Shown here piece after piece: positions 57,949 through 64,000 of a DNA stretch of 64,000 nt. Source of the DNA: Denitromonas iodatirespirans (GTDB lineage: Bacteria; Pseudomonadota; Gammaproteobacteria; Burkholderiales; Rhodocyclaceae); assembly GCF_018524365.1 (NCBI RefSeq), contig NZ_JAEKFT010000025.1, positions 1 to 64,000 on the forward strand, in the 5' to 3' direction. A program made the position numbers and the translations under genes. Numbering within the stretch: the first letter of the stretch is position 1; each line of letters opens with the position of its first letter. Under the pieces are notes generated by a model. The model saw only the letters and a program-made list of their open reading frames with translations, did not search any database and was not told the origin of the DNA.

Positions 57949-58120
57949 GGGGGGAGGCCAGCGAAAGCAAAAGCGCAATTGTGCCCCAAACGCCGCGGCA
58001 GGGGCGCACCGGCGCAGGCCGGGCTTGCTCTCGGGTGACCACATGCTTTAATCAGAAGAAGCCATCGTCATGGCGTCGGCCGGCGCTCGCCGGCTGCCCC
58101 CGTGCCTTCTGAGGTGCCCC

Positions 58121-58915
58121 ATGAGCAAGCGTGCACTGACCATCGGCATCAACGACTACCCCGGCACCGACGGCGACCTCGCCGGCTGCGTGAACGACGC
58201 CCGCGACTGGGGCGCCGTGCTCGGCGCCCAGGGTTACGAGGTGTCCACGCTGCTCGACGCCGCCGCCACCCGCGACGCGATGGTGGCCCATATCGGCGAC
58301 CGCGTGGCCGGTGCCAGCGCTGGTGACACCGTCATCATCACCTACTCGGGCCACGGCACCTGGGTGCCGGACCGCTCCGGCGACGAGTCCGACGGGCGCG
58401 ACGAGGCGCTGTGCCCGCACGACATCGGCGACGGCAAGATGCTGCTCGACGACGACCTGCACGCGCTCTTCGACCAGCGCCCGGCCGGCGTGCGCGTGGT
58501 GCTCATCTCCGACAGCTGCCACTCCGGCTCGGTCACCCGTGGCGACGAGGCCGACCTCGACCCCGCCTTGCCGCGCGCCCGCTTCCTGCCGCCGGCCAGC
58601 TGGATGAGCCTGGCCGAGCTGGCCGCCTGCCGCGGCCGGCCCGCGGCGCTGATGGGCGGCATGACGCGCACCGGCGGCGACCTGCTGCTGGCCGGCTGCC
58701 GCGACACCGAGTTCAGCTGGGACACCCAGTTCCGCGGCCGCCCCAACGGCGCCTTCACCTACTACGCCATCAAGACCTTGCACACCTTGCTGCCCGGCGC
58801 CAGCTACCAGCAGTGGTTCCGCGCCATCCGCCACTACCTGCCCTCCACCCGCCTGCCGCAGTCCCCCCAGATCTTCGGCTCGCGCTCCGCCCGCCATTTC
58901 GAATTGTTCACCTGA
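58121..58915 (+). CDS. Caspase-family (metacaspase, peptidase C14) protease
   Basis: 264 residues from the ATG at 58121, preceded by GAGGTG. The caspase fold is complete: MSKRALTIGINDYPG opens strand 1, the catalytic His78 is in ITYSGHGTW, and Cys133 is in LISDSCHSGS. An acidic WVPDRSGDESDGRDEALCPHD loop, as in type I metacaspases, follows the His. FTYYAIKTLH and the QSPQIFGS end are usual. No signal peptide, so it is cytoplasmic. Metacaspases cut after Arg or Lys and are often Ca2+ dependent. The next gene, 24 bases on, encodes a lipase/CHAT fusion. Confidence 0.93.
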   Translation: MSKRALTIGINDYPGTDGDLAGCVNDARDWGAVLGAQGYEVSTLLDAAATRDAMVAHIGDRVAGASAGDTVIITYSGHGTWVPDRSGDESDGRDEALCPHDIGDGKMLLDDDLHALFDQRPAGVRVVLISDSCHSGSVTRGDEADLDPALPRARFLPPASWMSLAELAACRGRPAALMGGMTRTGGDLLLAGCRDTEFSWDTQFRGRPNGAFTYYAIKTLHTLLPGASYQQWFRAIRHYLPSTRLPQSPQIFGSRSARHFELFT

Positions 58916-58939
58916 CCCCCGCCCACCAAGGAATTGCCC

Positions 58940-61900
58940 ATGCCCACCGACGCCCGCATTCGTCTCACCGGCGCCAGCGCCGCTGCCCGCGCGCCGCGCA
59001 CCGAGCAAATCGACGTGACCTCGGCCCGGCGCATCACGCCGGGCGCGGCCCGCGGCGGCGAGACCGCCGTCGAGATCGACGCCGACGCGGTGCTGCGGGT
59101 CGAGCTGGAAAACGGCTTCGTGCTGTGGTCGCGGGCCGACGACCTGCTGCAAGAGCGCGGCAAGAAAAGCGTCGGGCGCGACGGCGAGGCGGCCTGGCAA
59201 CTCGACTTCGGTCCGCGACCCGGCCATGCCGGCGGCGGCGCCTCGCGCGGCTGGGTGGGCCTCGGCGTGCGGGTGCTGGAGGCCTTCGGCATCGATCTCA
59301 AGGGCGTGGTCGTCGCCAAGCTGGGCGAAGTGCTGGAGGATCGCAAGCTGCATGGCGCACCGGGTCTTTACCGGGTATCGCTCGGCGCCAGCCCCGACCT
59401 GCAGCCGGCCGACACGGTCGCGCCGGGCGGCGGCGCGGCGCTGGTCTTCCTGCATGGCACCGGCTCGAGCACCACCGGCAGTTTCGGCGCGCTGTGGGAG
59501 AAGGACAACAGCGCCGGCGCGGCCCTGCGCACGCGGCTGGCCGAGCGCTATGGCGAGCGTGTCTTCGCGCTCGAGCACCGCACTCTGACCGAAAGCCCGG
59601 TGGCCAACGCGCTGGCGCTGGCCCGCGCCCTGCCGGCCGGCGCCGAACTGCACCTGGTGAGCCATTCGCGCGGCGGGCTGGTCGGCGAACTGATGTGCCT
59701 GGGCATGCGCGATCGCGATACCGATCCGCTCGATGGTGCGCTGCTCGACACCTTGTTCGCCGCCGACCGCACCATGGCCGAGCAGCTCGGCCTGTCCTCG
59801 CTCGACGGCGAGGCGGCCAAGGCGCGCGATGCCGCCTATGACGCCGATCGCAAGGCCCTCAAGGCGCTGATCGCCGAGCTCGACGCCAAGCAGCTGCGTG
59901 TCAGCCGTTTCGTGCGGGTGGCCTGTCCGGCGCGCGGCACCACGCTGGCGGCCGGGCGGCTCGACCGCTGGCTGTCGGTGCTCGACTTCCTGGCTGGCGG
60001 CAGCATGCTGGGCGAGGCGCTCGACTTCCTGCTGGCGGTGGTCAAGGCGCGCACCGACCCGCGCACCCTGCCAGGCCTCGAAGCGATGATGCCCGGCTCG
60101 GCCCTGACCCGCCTGCTGCAGTCGCCCGATCTCACCGTGACTGCCGATCTGTCGGTGATCGCCGGCGACATCGAGGGCGATTCGCTGTGGCAGCAGATCA
60201 AGCTCCTGGCCACCGACTGGTTCTATGGCGCCGACCACGACCTGGTGGTGAACACCGGCTCCATGCTCGGCGGCCTGCGCCGGCCCGAGGGCGCTGCGCG
60301 CTACCTGCGCGACGCCGGTGGCGAGGTCAATCACTTCCGCTATTTCACCAACGAGACCTCCGTCAAATGGCTGGGCCACGGGCTGACCCGGCCGGAGGGC
60401 AGCGACGGCGGTTTCCTGCCCATCGCCACCGCGCCGCACGAGGCGCCACGCTGGCGCGAGGCGCTGCGCCGCAGCCGTGCCGGTGGTGCGCCGCGGCCGC
60501 TGGCGGTGGTGCTGCCCGGCACCATGGGCAGCGTGCTGCAGCAGCGCGGCGAGACGGTGTGGGTGGACTACTGGCGCCTGCTGCGCGGCCAACTCAAGCG
60601 CCTGCGCATGGGCCAGCCGGATGTCGAGCCGATCGATCTGGTCGGCGATTTCTACGGCCCGATGGTCGAATTCCTGGCGCGCAGCCACCGGGTCGAGATC
60701 TTCCCCTACGACTGGCGCCAGTCGGTCACTGCGGCCGCGGCGCGCCTGGCCGAAGCGCTGACCGACTGGCTGCCCGAGATGGAAGCCTGCGGCCAGCCGG
60801 TGCATCTGGTGGCGCACTCGATGGGCGGCCTGGTGGTGCGCGCCATGATCGCCGACGGCGGCGCAGGCACAGCCGCCTGGCAGCGCATCACCGCCTTGCC
60901 CAACAGCCGCTTCGTGATGCTCGGCACGCCGAACCTCGGCTCGCACGAGGCGGTGCGCTGGCTCACCGGCTGCAACCCCACCCAGCAGAAACTGGCGCTG
61001 CTCGACTTCACCCAGACCGTCACCGGCATCACCGAGATCGTGCGCGACTACGCCGGCTTGCTCGAGTTGCTGCCCTTCGATCCGGCCGACCGCGATTTTG
61101 CCGATCCGGCCCTGTGGAAGGCGCTCAAGGCCGAGATGTCGGCGGTGTGGCCGCTGGCCGATGCGGCCGCGCTGCGCAGCGCGCGCGAGACCTGGCGGCG
61201 CCTCATCGATGCGCCGCCCGACCCGCGCCACATGATCTACCTGGCCGGCTGCCAGCCGGCGACGGTGGCCGACTACCAGGTGGTGCCGGTCAACGAATGG
61301 GAGCCGGCGAGCGAGCGCAAACTGGCCTTCGAGGCCACCGCGGAGGGCGATGGCACCGTCACCTGGGCCTCGGGCCGCCTGCCCGGCGTGCCGGTGTGGT
61401 ATGTCGAAGACACCGCCCATGACGCGCTGTGCACGCAAAAGCGCGCCTTCCCCGGTCTGCTCGACCTGCTCATGACCGGCACCACCACCCGCCTGCCGGC
61501 CACCCCGCCGGCGCGGGCGCGGGCCGGCGAGACGGTGCCGGCGCGCTTCCCGATGCCCGAGGCGCCCTTCACCGACGACTTCCCCGACGAGGCCGCGGTG
61601 CGCACCCTGGGCTTCGGTCCGGGAGGACCGGTGGTGATCGGGACCGCCGCCGCGGCAGTGCCGACGCTGGCGGTCAGCATCCGCCATGGCGATCTGGCCT
61701 ATGCGCGCTACCCGGTGCTGGTCGGGCACTATGCCGGCGACACCATCGTCAGCGCCGAGGCGGCGGTCAACCACCGGCTCGGCGGGGCGCTGTCGCAGCG
61801 GCTCAACCTGGGCATGTATCCGGCGGCCAATGGCACCCACGCGCTGTTTTTCAACGAGGTGCCCGAGCACAAGCCGGCCGGCGCGATCGTGCTCGGTCTG

Positions 61901-64000
61901 GGGCTGGTCGGCGAGTTGTCGCCGGGCCTGCTCGAAGCCGGCGTGCGCAGCGCCTTGATCGACTTCGCGCTGCAAGTCGCGCAGTGGCCCGACGACATCC
62001 GCTTTGGCCCGGCCTCGGCGCCGCGCTCGGCGGCGGTCAGCTGCCTGCTGGTCGGCTCCGGCGCCGGCGGCATGCCGGTCGGCACCTCGGTGGACGCCAT
62101 CCTGCGCGGCGCGGTGGCCGCCAGCGCCGCGCTGGTGGCGCAGGGGCTGGAGAACCGGGTGGTGATCGATGCGGTGGAATTCATCGAGGTGTTCGAGGAT
62201 GTGGCCATCTCGGCCGCCGAAGGCCTCGAAAACTGCCTGCGCGACGGCGAGTTGGCCGCCCGGGTGCGCTGGGCGAGCCGCGACATCCAATTGGGCGAGG
62301 GGCGTCGGCGCCGGGTGCGCTGCGACGAGCTGCCCGACTGGTGGCACCGGCTGGAGATCGTCGAGGAGCCCGGCCGCGAGGCCTTGCGCTTCATCTTCGC
62401 TACCGACCGTGCGCGCGCCGAGGAGACCCTGATGGCCGGGCAACTGGCCCTGGCCGATGCCTTCATCGCCCAGGCCTCGGCCTCGCCGGCGGCCAACAGC
62501 GAAATCGCCAAGACCTTGTTCGAGATGCTGCTGCCCAACCGGCTCAAGGAGATGGCGCCGCGCCAGAGCCACATGGTGGTGCTGGTCGACGAGCGCTCGG
62601 CGCGCTATCCGTGGGAGCTGCTGGAGAACCGCTGGAGCGTGGGCGACCGCCCGCCGGCGGTGGCCGCCGGGCTGGTGCGCCAGCTCAAGGCCGCGCAGTT
62701 CCGCGCCCAGCCGGCCCATGCGCCGCATGCCAAGGCGCTGGTGGTGGGCAACCCGGACCTCGACGGCTGGGCCGGTTTCGCCGACCTGCCGGGCGCCCGC
62801 CAGGAGGCCGAGACGGTGGTCAGCATGCTGCGCGGCGGCGGCTTCGAGGTGCGCGAGAGCATCGACGAGCGGGCCGACGCGATCCTCGCCGGCGTGCATC
62901 GCGACGCCTGGCGCATTCTGCATCTGGCGGGCCACGGGGTGCACGAGATGAGCTGCGCCAACGGCCGCGCGGTGTCGGGCATGGTGATCGGTCGCGATGC
63001 GGTGCTCACGCCGGGCGATGTGGAGCAGATGCGCTGGGTGCCCGAGCTGGTGTTCATCAACTGCTGCCACCTGGGCAAGACCGGCGCCGGCGAGTCGGCA
63101 CGCTTCAACCTGCTGGCCGCCAACCTGGCGGTGCAGTTCGTGCGCATGGGCGTCAAGGCGGTGGTGGCCGCCGGCTGGGCGGTGGACGATGCGGCGGCCA
63201 ACGCCTTCGCCGCCAGCTTCTACAAGCATCTGCTGGCCGGGCAGGCCTTCGGCGAGTCGGTGCGCGCGGCGCGCGAGGAGGCGTGGTCGAGCTTCCCCGG
63301 CATCAACACCTGGGGCGCCTACCAGTGCTATGGCGACCCGAGCTATCACCTGCGCGGCCAGGCCGGCGTCACCACGCCGCGGGCCATGAGTCCGTTCTAC
63401 GCGCCGTCCGAGCTGGTGGTGGCGCTCGAGAACCATGTGCAGTGGGTGCAGATGCAGGTGCGGCGCCATGGCGACGATGCGGCCGAGCTGGCGCGCCTGC
63501 GCGAGGGCATTCCCGCCATTCTCGGGCGGGTGCCGCAGGCGCTGTCCGAGCGCTGGCTGGCGCGCGCCGACGTGGCCGCCGCCATCGGCTTCGCCTGGGG
63601 CGAGACCGGCGCCTTCGCCGAGGCGGTCGAGTGGCTCAACCGGGCGCTCGGCGCCGACGTAGGCGACTGCCCGGTGCGGGCGGTCGAGCAGTGTGCCAAC
63701 TTCAAGGTGCGCCTGGCCGGCCAGGCCTGGTTGCAGCTGCGCGCGTCGTCGGAGGCCGACGAGGGGCGTCGTGCCGCGCTGGTGACGCAGATCGAAGAGG
63801 CCATCGCCGAGCTGGACCTGATCTGCCGCCGTGCGCCGACCGAGGAGCGCTACACCCTGCTCGGCAGCGCCTGCAAGCGCCTGGCCTGGCTGCAGGTGGC
63901 GCCCGCGCCGCGGCTCGAAGCGCTGATCAACATGGGCAACTACTACCGTCTGGCGATGGAGACGGCGGGCAAGGGGCGCTCGATCTATGGCTTCACCAAC
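58940..64000 (+). CDS. Giant two-hydrolase/CHAT protease fusion (3' end outside window)
   Basis: Open from the ATG at 58940 (AAGGAAT upstream) to the window edge: 1687 residues without stop. Region 1 (about 160-480) is a lipase-like alpha/beta hydrolase: LVFLHGTGSSTTGSFG, nucleophile Ser243 in SHSRGG, then YGADHDLVVNTGSM. Region 2 (about 500-860) is an LCAT/PGAP1-like hydrolase: VVLPGTMGSVLQ, PYDWRQSV, Ser627 in AHSMGG, and MLGTPNLGS. Region 3 (about 910-1040) is an unassigned domain (RHGDLAYARYPVLVGHYAGD). A CHAT domain (about 1200-1420) has His1332 in LHLAGHG and Cys1376 in FINCCHLG. TPR-like helices begin near 1450. It probably forms an operon with the metacaspase. Function unknown; a protease-gated lipase is an inference. 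Confidence 0.85.
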   Translation, partial: MPTDARIRLTGASAAARAPRTEQIDVTSARRITPGAARGGETAVEIDADAVLRVELENGFVLWSRADDLLQERGKKSVGRDGEAAWQLDFGPRPGHAGGGASRGWVGLGVRVLEAFGIDLKGVVVAKLGEVLEDRKLHGAPGLYRVSLGASPDLQPADTVAPGGGAALVFLHGTGSSTTGSFGALWEKDNSAGAALRTRLAERYGERVFALEHRTLTESPVANALALARALPAGAELHLVSHSRGGLVGELMCLGMRDRDTDPLDGALLDTLFAADRTMAEQLGLSSLDGEAAKARDAAYDADRKALKALIAELDAKQLRVSRFVRVACPARGTTLAAGRLDRWLSVLDFLAGGSMLGEALDFLLAVVKARTDPRTLPGLEAMMPGSALTRLLQSPDLTVTADLSVIAGDIEGDSLWQQIKLLATDWFYGADHDLVVNTGSMLGGLRRPEGAARYLRDAGGEVNHFRYFTNETSVKWLGHGLTRPEGSDGGFLPIATAPHEAPRWREALRRSRAGGAPRPLAVVLPGTMGSVLQQRGETVWVDYWRLLRGQLKRLRMGQPDVEPIDLVGDFYGPMVEFLARSHRVEIFPYDWRQSVTAAAARLAEALTDWLPEMEACGQPVHLVAHSMGGLVVRAMIADGGAGTAAWQRITALPNSRFVMLGTPNLGSHEAVRWLTGCNPTQQKLALLDFTQTVTGITEIVRDYAGLLELLPFDPADRDFADPALWKALKAEMSAVWPLADAAALRSARETWRRLIDAPPDPRHMIYLAGCQPATVADYQVVPVNEWEPASERKLAFEATAEGDGTVTWASGRLPGVPVWYVEDTAHDALCTQKRAFPGLLDLLMTGTTTRLPATPPARARAGETVPARFPMPEAPFTDDFPDEAAVRTLGFGPGGPVVIGTAAAAVPTLAVSIRHGDLAYARYPVLVGHYAGDTIVSAEAAVNHRLGGALSQRLNLGMYPAANGTHALFFNEVPEHKPAGAIVLGLGLVGELSPGLLEAGVRSALIDFALQVAQWPDDIRFGPASAPRSAAVSCLLVGSGAGGMPVGTSVDAILRGAVAASAALVAQGLENRVVIDAVEFIEVFEDVAISAAEGLENCLRDGELAARVRWASRDIQLGEGRRRRVRCDELPDWWHRLEIVEEPGREALRFIFATDRARAEETLMAGQLALADAFIAQASASPAANSEIAKTLFEMLLPNRLKEMAPRQSHMVVLVDERSARYPWELLENRWSVGDRPPAVAAGLVRQLKAAQFRAQPAHAPHAKALVVGNPDLDGWAGFADLPGARQEAETVVSMLRGGGFEVRESIDERADAILAGVHRDAWRILHLAGHGVHEMSCANGRAVSGMVIGRDAVLTPGDVEQMRWVPELVFINCCHLGKTGAGESARFNLLAANLAVQFVRMGVKAVVAAGWAVDDAAANAFAASFYKHLLAGQAFGESVRAAREEAWSSFPGINTWGAYQCYGDPSYHLRGQAGVTTPRAMSPFYAPSELVVALENHVQWVQMQVRRHGDDAAELARLREGIPAILGRVPQALSERWLARADVAAAIGFAWGETGAFAEAVEWLNRALGADVGDCPVRAVEQCANFKVRLAGQAWLQLRASSEADEGRRAALVTQIEEAIAELDLICRRAPTEERYTLLGSACKRLAWLQVAPAPRLEALINMGNYYRLAMETAGKGRSIYGFTN

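Follow-up and report, generated by a model that had tools for sequence, protein, structure and literature searches.

In this study, a three-gene cassette was identified in a 64,000-nucleotide stretch of Denitromonas iodatirespirans DNA (contig NZ_JAEKFT010000025.1, positions 1 to 64,000 of the forward strand; hereafter the window). A metacaspase gene near the right-hand end of the window is followed by a gene for one polypeptide that joins two alpha/beta-hydrolases, a macro-fold domain, a second caspase-type protease (CHAT) and a TPR-S domain, and then, outside the window, by a gene for an endolysin-like M15 peptidase. On the basis of domain content and gene neighbourhood, we hold with moderate confidence that this cassette functions as an intracellular, regulated, protease-controlled module for lytic cell death (conflict) or defence, which is probably gated by a signal.

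The fusion gene was traced past the window end on the same contig (C121, 70,588 bases, with the window at C121:1-64000). Its start is TTG 58934 or ATG 58940, the latter 24 bases past the metacaspase stop, confirming the spacing given in an earlier, first-pass annotation of the window. Residues are numbered here from the TTG; Ser243, Ser627, His1332 and Cys1376 of that annotation correspond to S245, S629, H1334 and C1378 and are exact after this shift of 2, and its assignment of two serine-hydrolase domains and CHAT to one chain was correct. Pfam matches to the fusion were DUF7379 (1.2e-32), LCAT (2.1e-7), DUF676 (1.2e-4), CHAT (1.2e-30) and TPR-S. A macro-fold domain and a C-terminal TPR-S domain were found beyond those already annotated. 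The genome has no other TPR-S match with an E of 0.001 or lower, and an NCBIfam search gave zero matches above a cut-off. The reading frame is not a chance one, because a match within an open frame of 1,795-2,312 codons recurs in 20 of 300 genomes.

Conservation was scored over 100 fusion homologues, counting rows with a letter at each position. In hydrolase 1, S245 was kept in 97/97, D436 in 98/98 and H467 in 98/98; in hydrolase 2, S629 was kept in 96/99 (the exceptions being G, C and A in loci L048, L057 and L123, respectively), and D806 and H829 in 99/99 each; in CHAT, H1334 and C1378 were kept in 97/97 each. Seven of the eight catalytic residues are therefore invariant where aligned, S629 being the eighth, and this conservation (of triads that are themselves putative) indicates that both hydrolases and the protease are constrained as enzymes. 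Fold and His-Cys dyad identify the CHAT domain as a CHAT protease, nearest in fold to separase and Csx29 (PDB 7y9x and others). Hydrolase 2 has the fold and the putative Ser-Asp-His triad of LCAT/lysosomal PLA2-like lipases, and hydrolysis of phospholipids is its putative activity. The macro-fold domain has aminopeptidase N-domains as its nearest sequences, and binding of ADP-ribose or a nucleotide is putative. Searching PDB sequences with the fusion alone gave five matches, the best being LPLA2 at 0.082, and a profile of its C-terminal half matched TPR proteins only.

The metacaspase gene occupies an open frame at 58070-58915 (+) with its ATG at 58121. Its closest PDB sequences were 3bij (GSU0716; 1.7e-31) and metacaspase-4 (5.6e-24). 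The dyad reported before, His78 and Cys133, was found as claimed when counted from this ATG, and both residues were invariant in all 44 aligned linked homologues, the window's own included. Caspase fold and dyad place the protein among the prokaryotic metacaspases/orthocaspases (C14), which is also the safer label. Type I metacaspases are defined by an N-terminal prodomain. The C14 match here starts at residue 3, leaving no prodomain in the 264-residue protein, and the type I designation used previously is not established. Elsewhere in the genome, Peptidase_C14 matched just the CHAT domain of the fusion. PADLOC labelled the protein "caspase" (4.2e-14) and nothing more, and gave the same label to three other metacaspases.

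The M15 protein matched phrog_894 of PHROG, an endolysin family, at 4.4e-28, showing its relatedness to phage endolysins. Residues H108, D115 and H157, which we take from the M15 pattern to be the active site, were kept in 29 of 30 rows (29 loci, that of L090 being split into two rows). By hydropathy alone, none of the M15 proteins had a hydrophobic start, the top 19-residue stretch within any first 60 residues averaging 1.24. After gene picking, the M15 gene was directly 3' of the fusion in 29 of 100 loci.

Table 1. Features of the metacaspase-fusion-M15 cassette (window positions unless prefixed C121; fusion residues numbered from TTG 58934)
Feature	Position	Strand	Description
Metacaspase (caspase-fold cysteine protease)	58121..58915	+	264 aa from ATG 58121, dyad His78/Cys133; Pfam Peptidase_C14 1.2e-25
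Fusion protein	58940..64000 in window; runs on to stop at C121:64372	+	1,812 codons from TTG 58934
Alpha/beta-hydrolase 1 (DUF7379)	59429..60433	+	residues ~166-500; putative triad S245-D436-H467, from conservation
Alpha/beta-hydrolase 2, lysosomal PLA2/LCAT fold	60476..61498	+	residues ~515-855; putative triad S629-D806-H829
Macro-fold domain	61646..62278	+	residues ~905-1115; nearest in sequence to Peptidase_M17 N-terminal domain
CHAT protease domain	62501..63337	+	residues 1190-1468; dyad H1334/C1378
TPR-S domain	63614..64000 (last residues past window)	+	residues 1561-1692; Pfam TPR-S 7.1e-10
M15 endolysin-like peptidase	C121:64373-64960 (outside window)		directly after fusion; 195 residues; Peptidase_M15_3 1.3e-6

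Relatives of the fusion were collected from several samples. In 300 genomes of the order, with a match defined as E up to 1e-20 in a frame of 1,795-2,312 codons, the fusion was present in 20, its own genome included; at the stricter 1e-80 it was present in 4 of 398 phylum-wide genomes, three of which were also in the order sample. A contig survey yielded at least 592 stretches with the peptide pattern, 512 of them similar at tblastn E up to 1e-3 and maybe not full-length. The best 80 of the 512 (79 loci) were taken, so that the set leans to near relatives; the closest among them were from Denitromonas (87%). Among the matches listed, some were in bins labelled Desulfuromonadales, Nitrospirales, Acidobacteriota and Bacteroidota. 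Plasmids carried fusion relatives in 11 of 72,556 records, all below 60% identity. Phage origin was considered and rejected, with zero matches in 50,697 phage records and zero in viral contigs in a single-protein scan that detects close relatives only. Some individual copies were also noted. On an Azotobacter plasmid (L173, NZ_CP066312.1), the fusion lies beside an S subunit, a DNA methyltransferase, Fic proteins and a recombinase; on a Paracoccus plasmid, a 1,094-aa gene precedes it; and in Azotobacter chroococcum DSM 2286 (L055:1943-15211) there are two tandem copies with a metacaspase before the first.

Gene neighbours were counted within five genes of the fusion at 100 loci, some of which end near the fusion, so that absence is not always observable; two of the loci (L035 and L112, both 215,143) are apparently one contig. 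TIR genes were found at 19 loci, TIR-like genes with TPR-S at 13, SLOG (overlapping TIR-like) at 21, M15 at 29, patatin at 4, nSTAND1 at 3 and Pvc16 or sheath at 8; taken together, TIR, TIR-like or SLOG genes were present at 35. De-replication at 75% identity left 68 loci, with a metacaspase at 22, M15 at 13 and TIR/TIR-like/SLOG at 25, and the corresponding counts for the 21 order-sample loci were 10, 3 and 5. Over the same loci, positions up to three from the fusion were compared with positions six or more away: metacaspase 44/540 vs 1/445, and, of the same 540 vs 445, TIR 17 vs 1, TIR-like 13 vs 1, SLOG 19 vs 2 and M15 30 vs 0. This contrast is biased to near genes, all profiles but that of the metacaspase having been built from near genes, and the DRH and SLOG matches overlap.

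Ten of the TIR-like TPR-S neighbours were analysed further; TPR-S was detected in 10/10 and MAP3K_TRAF_bd in 7/10 (best 1.7e-47), and two matched PADLOC "Effector/TIR" (6.1e-7 and 2.8e-8). Their N-terminal domain is presumably "DRHyd" (labelled DRH above). Against PDB, their profile matched ASK1/MAP3K5 at 1.6e-7, ranked below many generic TPR proteins. A patatin neighbour matched PADLOC "Effector/Phospholipase" at 7.4e-41. Other wall hydrolases adjoin the fusion, namely GH108 in L039 and an upstream N-acetylmuramidase in L116, and an opposite-strand family lies beside it in 4 loci (two being one contig), the one scanned member of which was M15_4. Further proteases and sensors included clostripain at -1 in L118, DUF4062-nSTAND1 in L116, TIR-AAA-TPR in L104 and TIR with nSTAND1 in L083; a study of a defence system reports DUF4062 to be a TIR-like NADase (PMC13174449). 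A membrane protein of ~520 aa (e.g. L101:16110-17675) was found behind M15 or the fusion in 18 loci. The one member scanned had no Pfam, PADLOC or PHROG match, and the protein could be an immunity protein. The cell-death or defence role suggested by the first-pass annotation is strengthened by the endolysin-like product of the third gene, by the phospholipase fold and by neighbours of the TIR, STAND and patatin families.

A possible course of action can be outlined from these components. A stress or infection signal, perhaps from a phage, would activate the CHAT protease within the same chain. The signal would probably be an NAD-derived or other nucleotide ligand; this is proposed because of the macro-fold and TPR-S domains and because many relatives have TIR, TIR-like or SLOG genes next to them. 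TPR-S has reportedly been predicted to act as a sensor of NAD-derived signals. The two serine hydrolases would next be freed or turned on, either by CHAT or, in loci that have it, by the metacaspase, and would attack membrane lipids. The M15 peptidase, which has no evident signal for export, would gain access to the wall after the membrane breach and cut it, like a phage endolysin after holin. The presence of a macro fold and TPR-S points to a small molecule as the signal, in place of a protease cascade or in addition to it. A more specific version is offered tentatively, as a possibility: a single-chain death effector of a new class, in which an NAD-derived signal, read by the macro-fold and TPR-S domains, acts through CHAT on two built-in phospholipases and which, together with the endolysin, bursts the cell from within. 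This would be a membrane-plus-wall lysis program that has no pore protein and is gated by one or two caspase-type proteases.

Within the genus, the order ubiB-metacaspase-fusion-M15-argS was observed in 9 of 10 genomes, including this one. The contig of the tenth genome, G673, breaks off within the fusion but still has M15 and argS in place. Six genomes from other genera of the family gave an argS match, and 3 of these, from neighbouring genera, were examined; in 3/3 the UbiB and ArgS matches were ~50-150 bases apart and the site was empty. The flanking genes were identified by PDB matches as an ABC1-family kinase and an arginyl-tRNA synthetase. Pairwise ratios of nonsynonymous to synonymous substitution rates in three comparisons were 0.14-0.39 for the fusion, 0.17-0.38 for the metacaspase, 0.14-0.52 for M15 and 0.10-0.16 for ArgS. 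The cassette is therefore under purifying selection, weaker than that on the housekeeping ArgS.

Several observations weigh against a role in cell death or defence. The immediate flanks are not a defence island, and the cassette is stable in the genus, whereas a patchy distribution is common among defence genes. This genome has nine TIR genes, all on other contigs, and no TIR, TIR-like or SLOG gene within five genes of the fusion, and 33 of the 100 loci showed none of the eleven counted partner families (one of the 33, L064, did give an M15 match in another search). Among the models of PADLOC, which was the one defence library searched, none represents the fusion, its best match being a weak SAVED_CHAT (0.0013). 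We know of no ADP-ribose binding by the PepA N-domain, the closest relative of the macro-fold domain. Three of the 11 plasmid loci were inspected and two had no metacaspase beside the fusion, as far as their incomplete gene tables go; the third was without a gene table.

Stable inheritance at one site in the genus, housekeeping flanks and purifying selection on every domain would also be expected of a non-suicidal stress or envelope-maintenance module, in which the hydrolases would serve to remodel membrane lipids or acyl-proteins, or to clear them, with the proteases and wall peptidase in a tuning or processing role. Such a role appears rather unlikely, given that CHAT, TPR-S and the metacaspase, together with TIR, nSTAND1, patatin, MAP3K_TRAF_bd and DUF4062 neighbours, are typical of conflict systems, that the fusion is patchy in the order, and that it occurs on plasmids.

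The pairing of metacaspase and fusion, proposed in the first-pass annotation from this locus, proved real and recurrent in other genomes. In 42 of the 100 loci the metacaspase gene preceded the fusion on its strand at a distance of no more than 300 bases; it was within five genes in 45, the others being downstream (L038) or at 505 (L085) and 1,019 bases (L043). An astacin-type gene and a kinase were also seen near L043. In the order sample, metacaspase relatives (E up to 1e-25) were found in 21 of the 300 genomes; both genes occurred in 15 (1.4 expected by chance), the fusion alone in 5 and the metacaspase alone in 6. Ten of the 15 had them linked and five unlinked (G026, G067, G224, G254 and G298, the last with a longer C14 protein). 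Any C14 protein at 1e-8 was present in 19/20 fusion genomes vs 69/280 others (p 2.6e-10, a value that counts the linked genes themselves and disregards genome size). Pairwise distances of metacaspase and fusion correlated at r 0.85 over 44 loci, with a permutation maximum of 0.39; the correlation is partly explicable by kinship alone, since all genes of related genomes correlate.

No metacaspase was found within five genes at 55 of the 100 loci, although six of them (L071, L086, L106, L111, L113 and L114) have less than 800 bases upstream and four genomes (G026, G067, G224 and G254) have one elsewhere. The fusion is therefore the constant part, and the metacaspase is not supported as a required trigger. 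These loci would also fit a fusion that acts alone, with the metacaspase as an independent co-inherited module, and so would metacaspase relatives with other partners. Two genomes (G254 and G224; L179:3500-5534 and L180:3686-5662) have the unlinked metacaspase immediately after a TIR gene, a possible type IV Thoeris-like pair, and in G026 there is a TIR gene two positions further along; those in G067, G029 and G073 and both G272 copies had no recognised partner. In G268, which lacks the fusion at threshold (L175:6743-10442), the metacaspase precedes a 976-aa protein with PG_binding_1 and papain matches and a GH19 match just under the cut-off, again suggesting a wall enzyme joined to a protease. 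Independence of this kind, as a TIR-metacaspase or metacaspase-lysin module, is nevertheless improbable in view of the 42 closely spaced loci, the correlation of distances (in part kinship) and the single unit in the genus.

Linker residues R513, R863 and R1127 were considered as metacaspase cut sites and rejected, being equally kept with and without a linked metacaspase. A basic residue was present at 1129 in 32/43 fusions with a linked metacaspase vs 11/55 without, and at 506 in 33/45 vs 15/48. This excess favours a cascade in which the metacaspase cuts the fusion, but the linked loci are more closely related to the window as well, and kinship may be the explanation. The cascade is not directly supported and is rated below regulated lytic death or defence, because more than half of the loci have no nearby metacaspase and the basic residues at 506 and 1129 are the sole hint.

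Genes of extracellular contractile injection systems (eCIS) were found just upstream of the metacaspase-fusion unit, divergent on the opposite strand, in 8 of 100 loci (Pvc16 in L031, L059, L067, L070, L087, L096 and L115; sheath in L101), the L031 neighbourhood also holding a gp19 tube gene. This genome has a Pvc16_N gene on another contig (G000:C113:29152-29760), unlinked to the cassette. That fusion and M15 are cargo of an eCIS or other secretion system, acting on other cells, is quite doubtful, as 92 of 100 loci have no eCIS link within five genes, M15 has no hydrophobic N-terminus (by hydropathy only) and 1,800 residues with internal regulatory domains would, to our knowledge, be unusual cargo.

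The cassette was compared with known systems. Like the antiphage canu (caspase-nuclease) system CanABC, in which a caspase-family protease activates a pro-enzyme, it has such a protease encoded upstream of a hydrolytic effector; unlike it, canu uses a nuclease effector of metallo-beta-lactamase fold and a caspase with an Ig-like domain (PMC12799240). The cassette instead has a second protease in one chain with two hydrolases of the lipase type, with cleavage putative, and no metallo-beta-lactamase-fold pro-nuclease was among the Pfam matches of its three proteins. In the VMAP/MoxR-vWA conflict systems, a caspase domain always occurs with a neighbouring alpha/beta-hydrolase gene, for which cooperation was suggested, a pairing shared with the cassette; unlike the cassette, these systems are regulated by a MoxR ATPase and a vWA protein (Kaur et al. 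2020, PMC7159879). Here a single chain carries the hydrolases together with the macro fold, CHAT and TPR-S, and the ternary MoxR ATPase, vWA and VMAP set was not found among the cassette and two flanking genes, to which the search was confined; nor was a gasdermin pore protein, as in bacterial gasdermin operons, found among these genes.

Type IV Thoeris reportedly consists of TIR plus a caspase-like protease (Rousset 2025). Some members of the present family resemble it in having a caspase-like protease tied to TIR genes; the cassette differs in adding lipases and a wall peptidase, and no TIR was found in its proteins or within five genes. The Thoeris TM-macro ThsA is a transmembrane effector whose macro domain binds ADPR or IAD and which oligomerises (PMC11204291); the feature in common is a macro-domain effector in the vicinity of TIR enzymes. 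Unlike it, the fusion has a macro fold nearest the PepA N-domain, with ligand binding putative. The CHAT fold is shared with Craspase TPR-CHAT/Csx29; unlike Craspase, the hydrolases are fused and no Cas7-11 was found among the three cassette proteins. A CRISPR link was rejected, no array being found in 14.6 kb; the CRISPR scan of L003 gave two weak two-copy repeats, inside genes.

Caspase and alpha/beta-hydrolase pairs and protease-activated effectors are already known. A chain with double lipase, macro, CHAT and TPR-S domains and such a partner was not described in the best-ranked literature matches, in line with the first-pass statement that no described system of this exact architecture was known to its author. 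The bacterial caspase-type systems named in one account (PMC12799240) work by way of gasdermins, CRISPR, NLR, Thoeris or a nuclease. If the proposed function is correct, the cassette would add protease-gated lipolysis coupled to wall hydrolysis, an obvious route to full lysis. Sensor, switch and executioner would then reside in one chain, with each step open to single point mutants.

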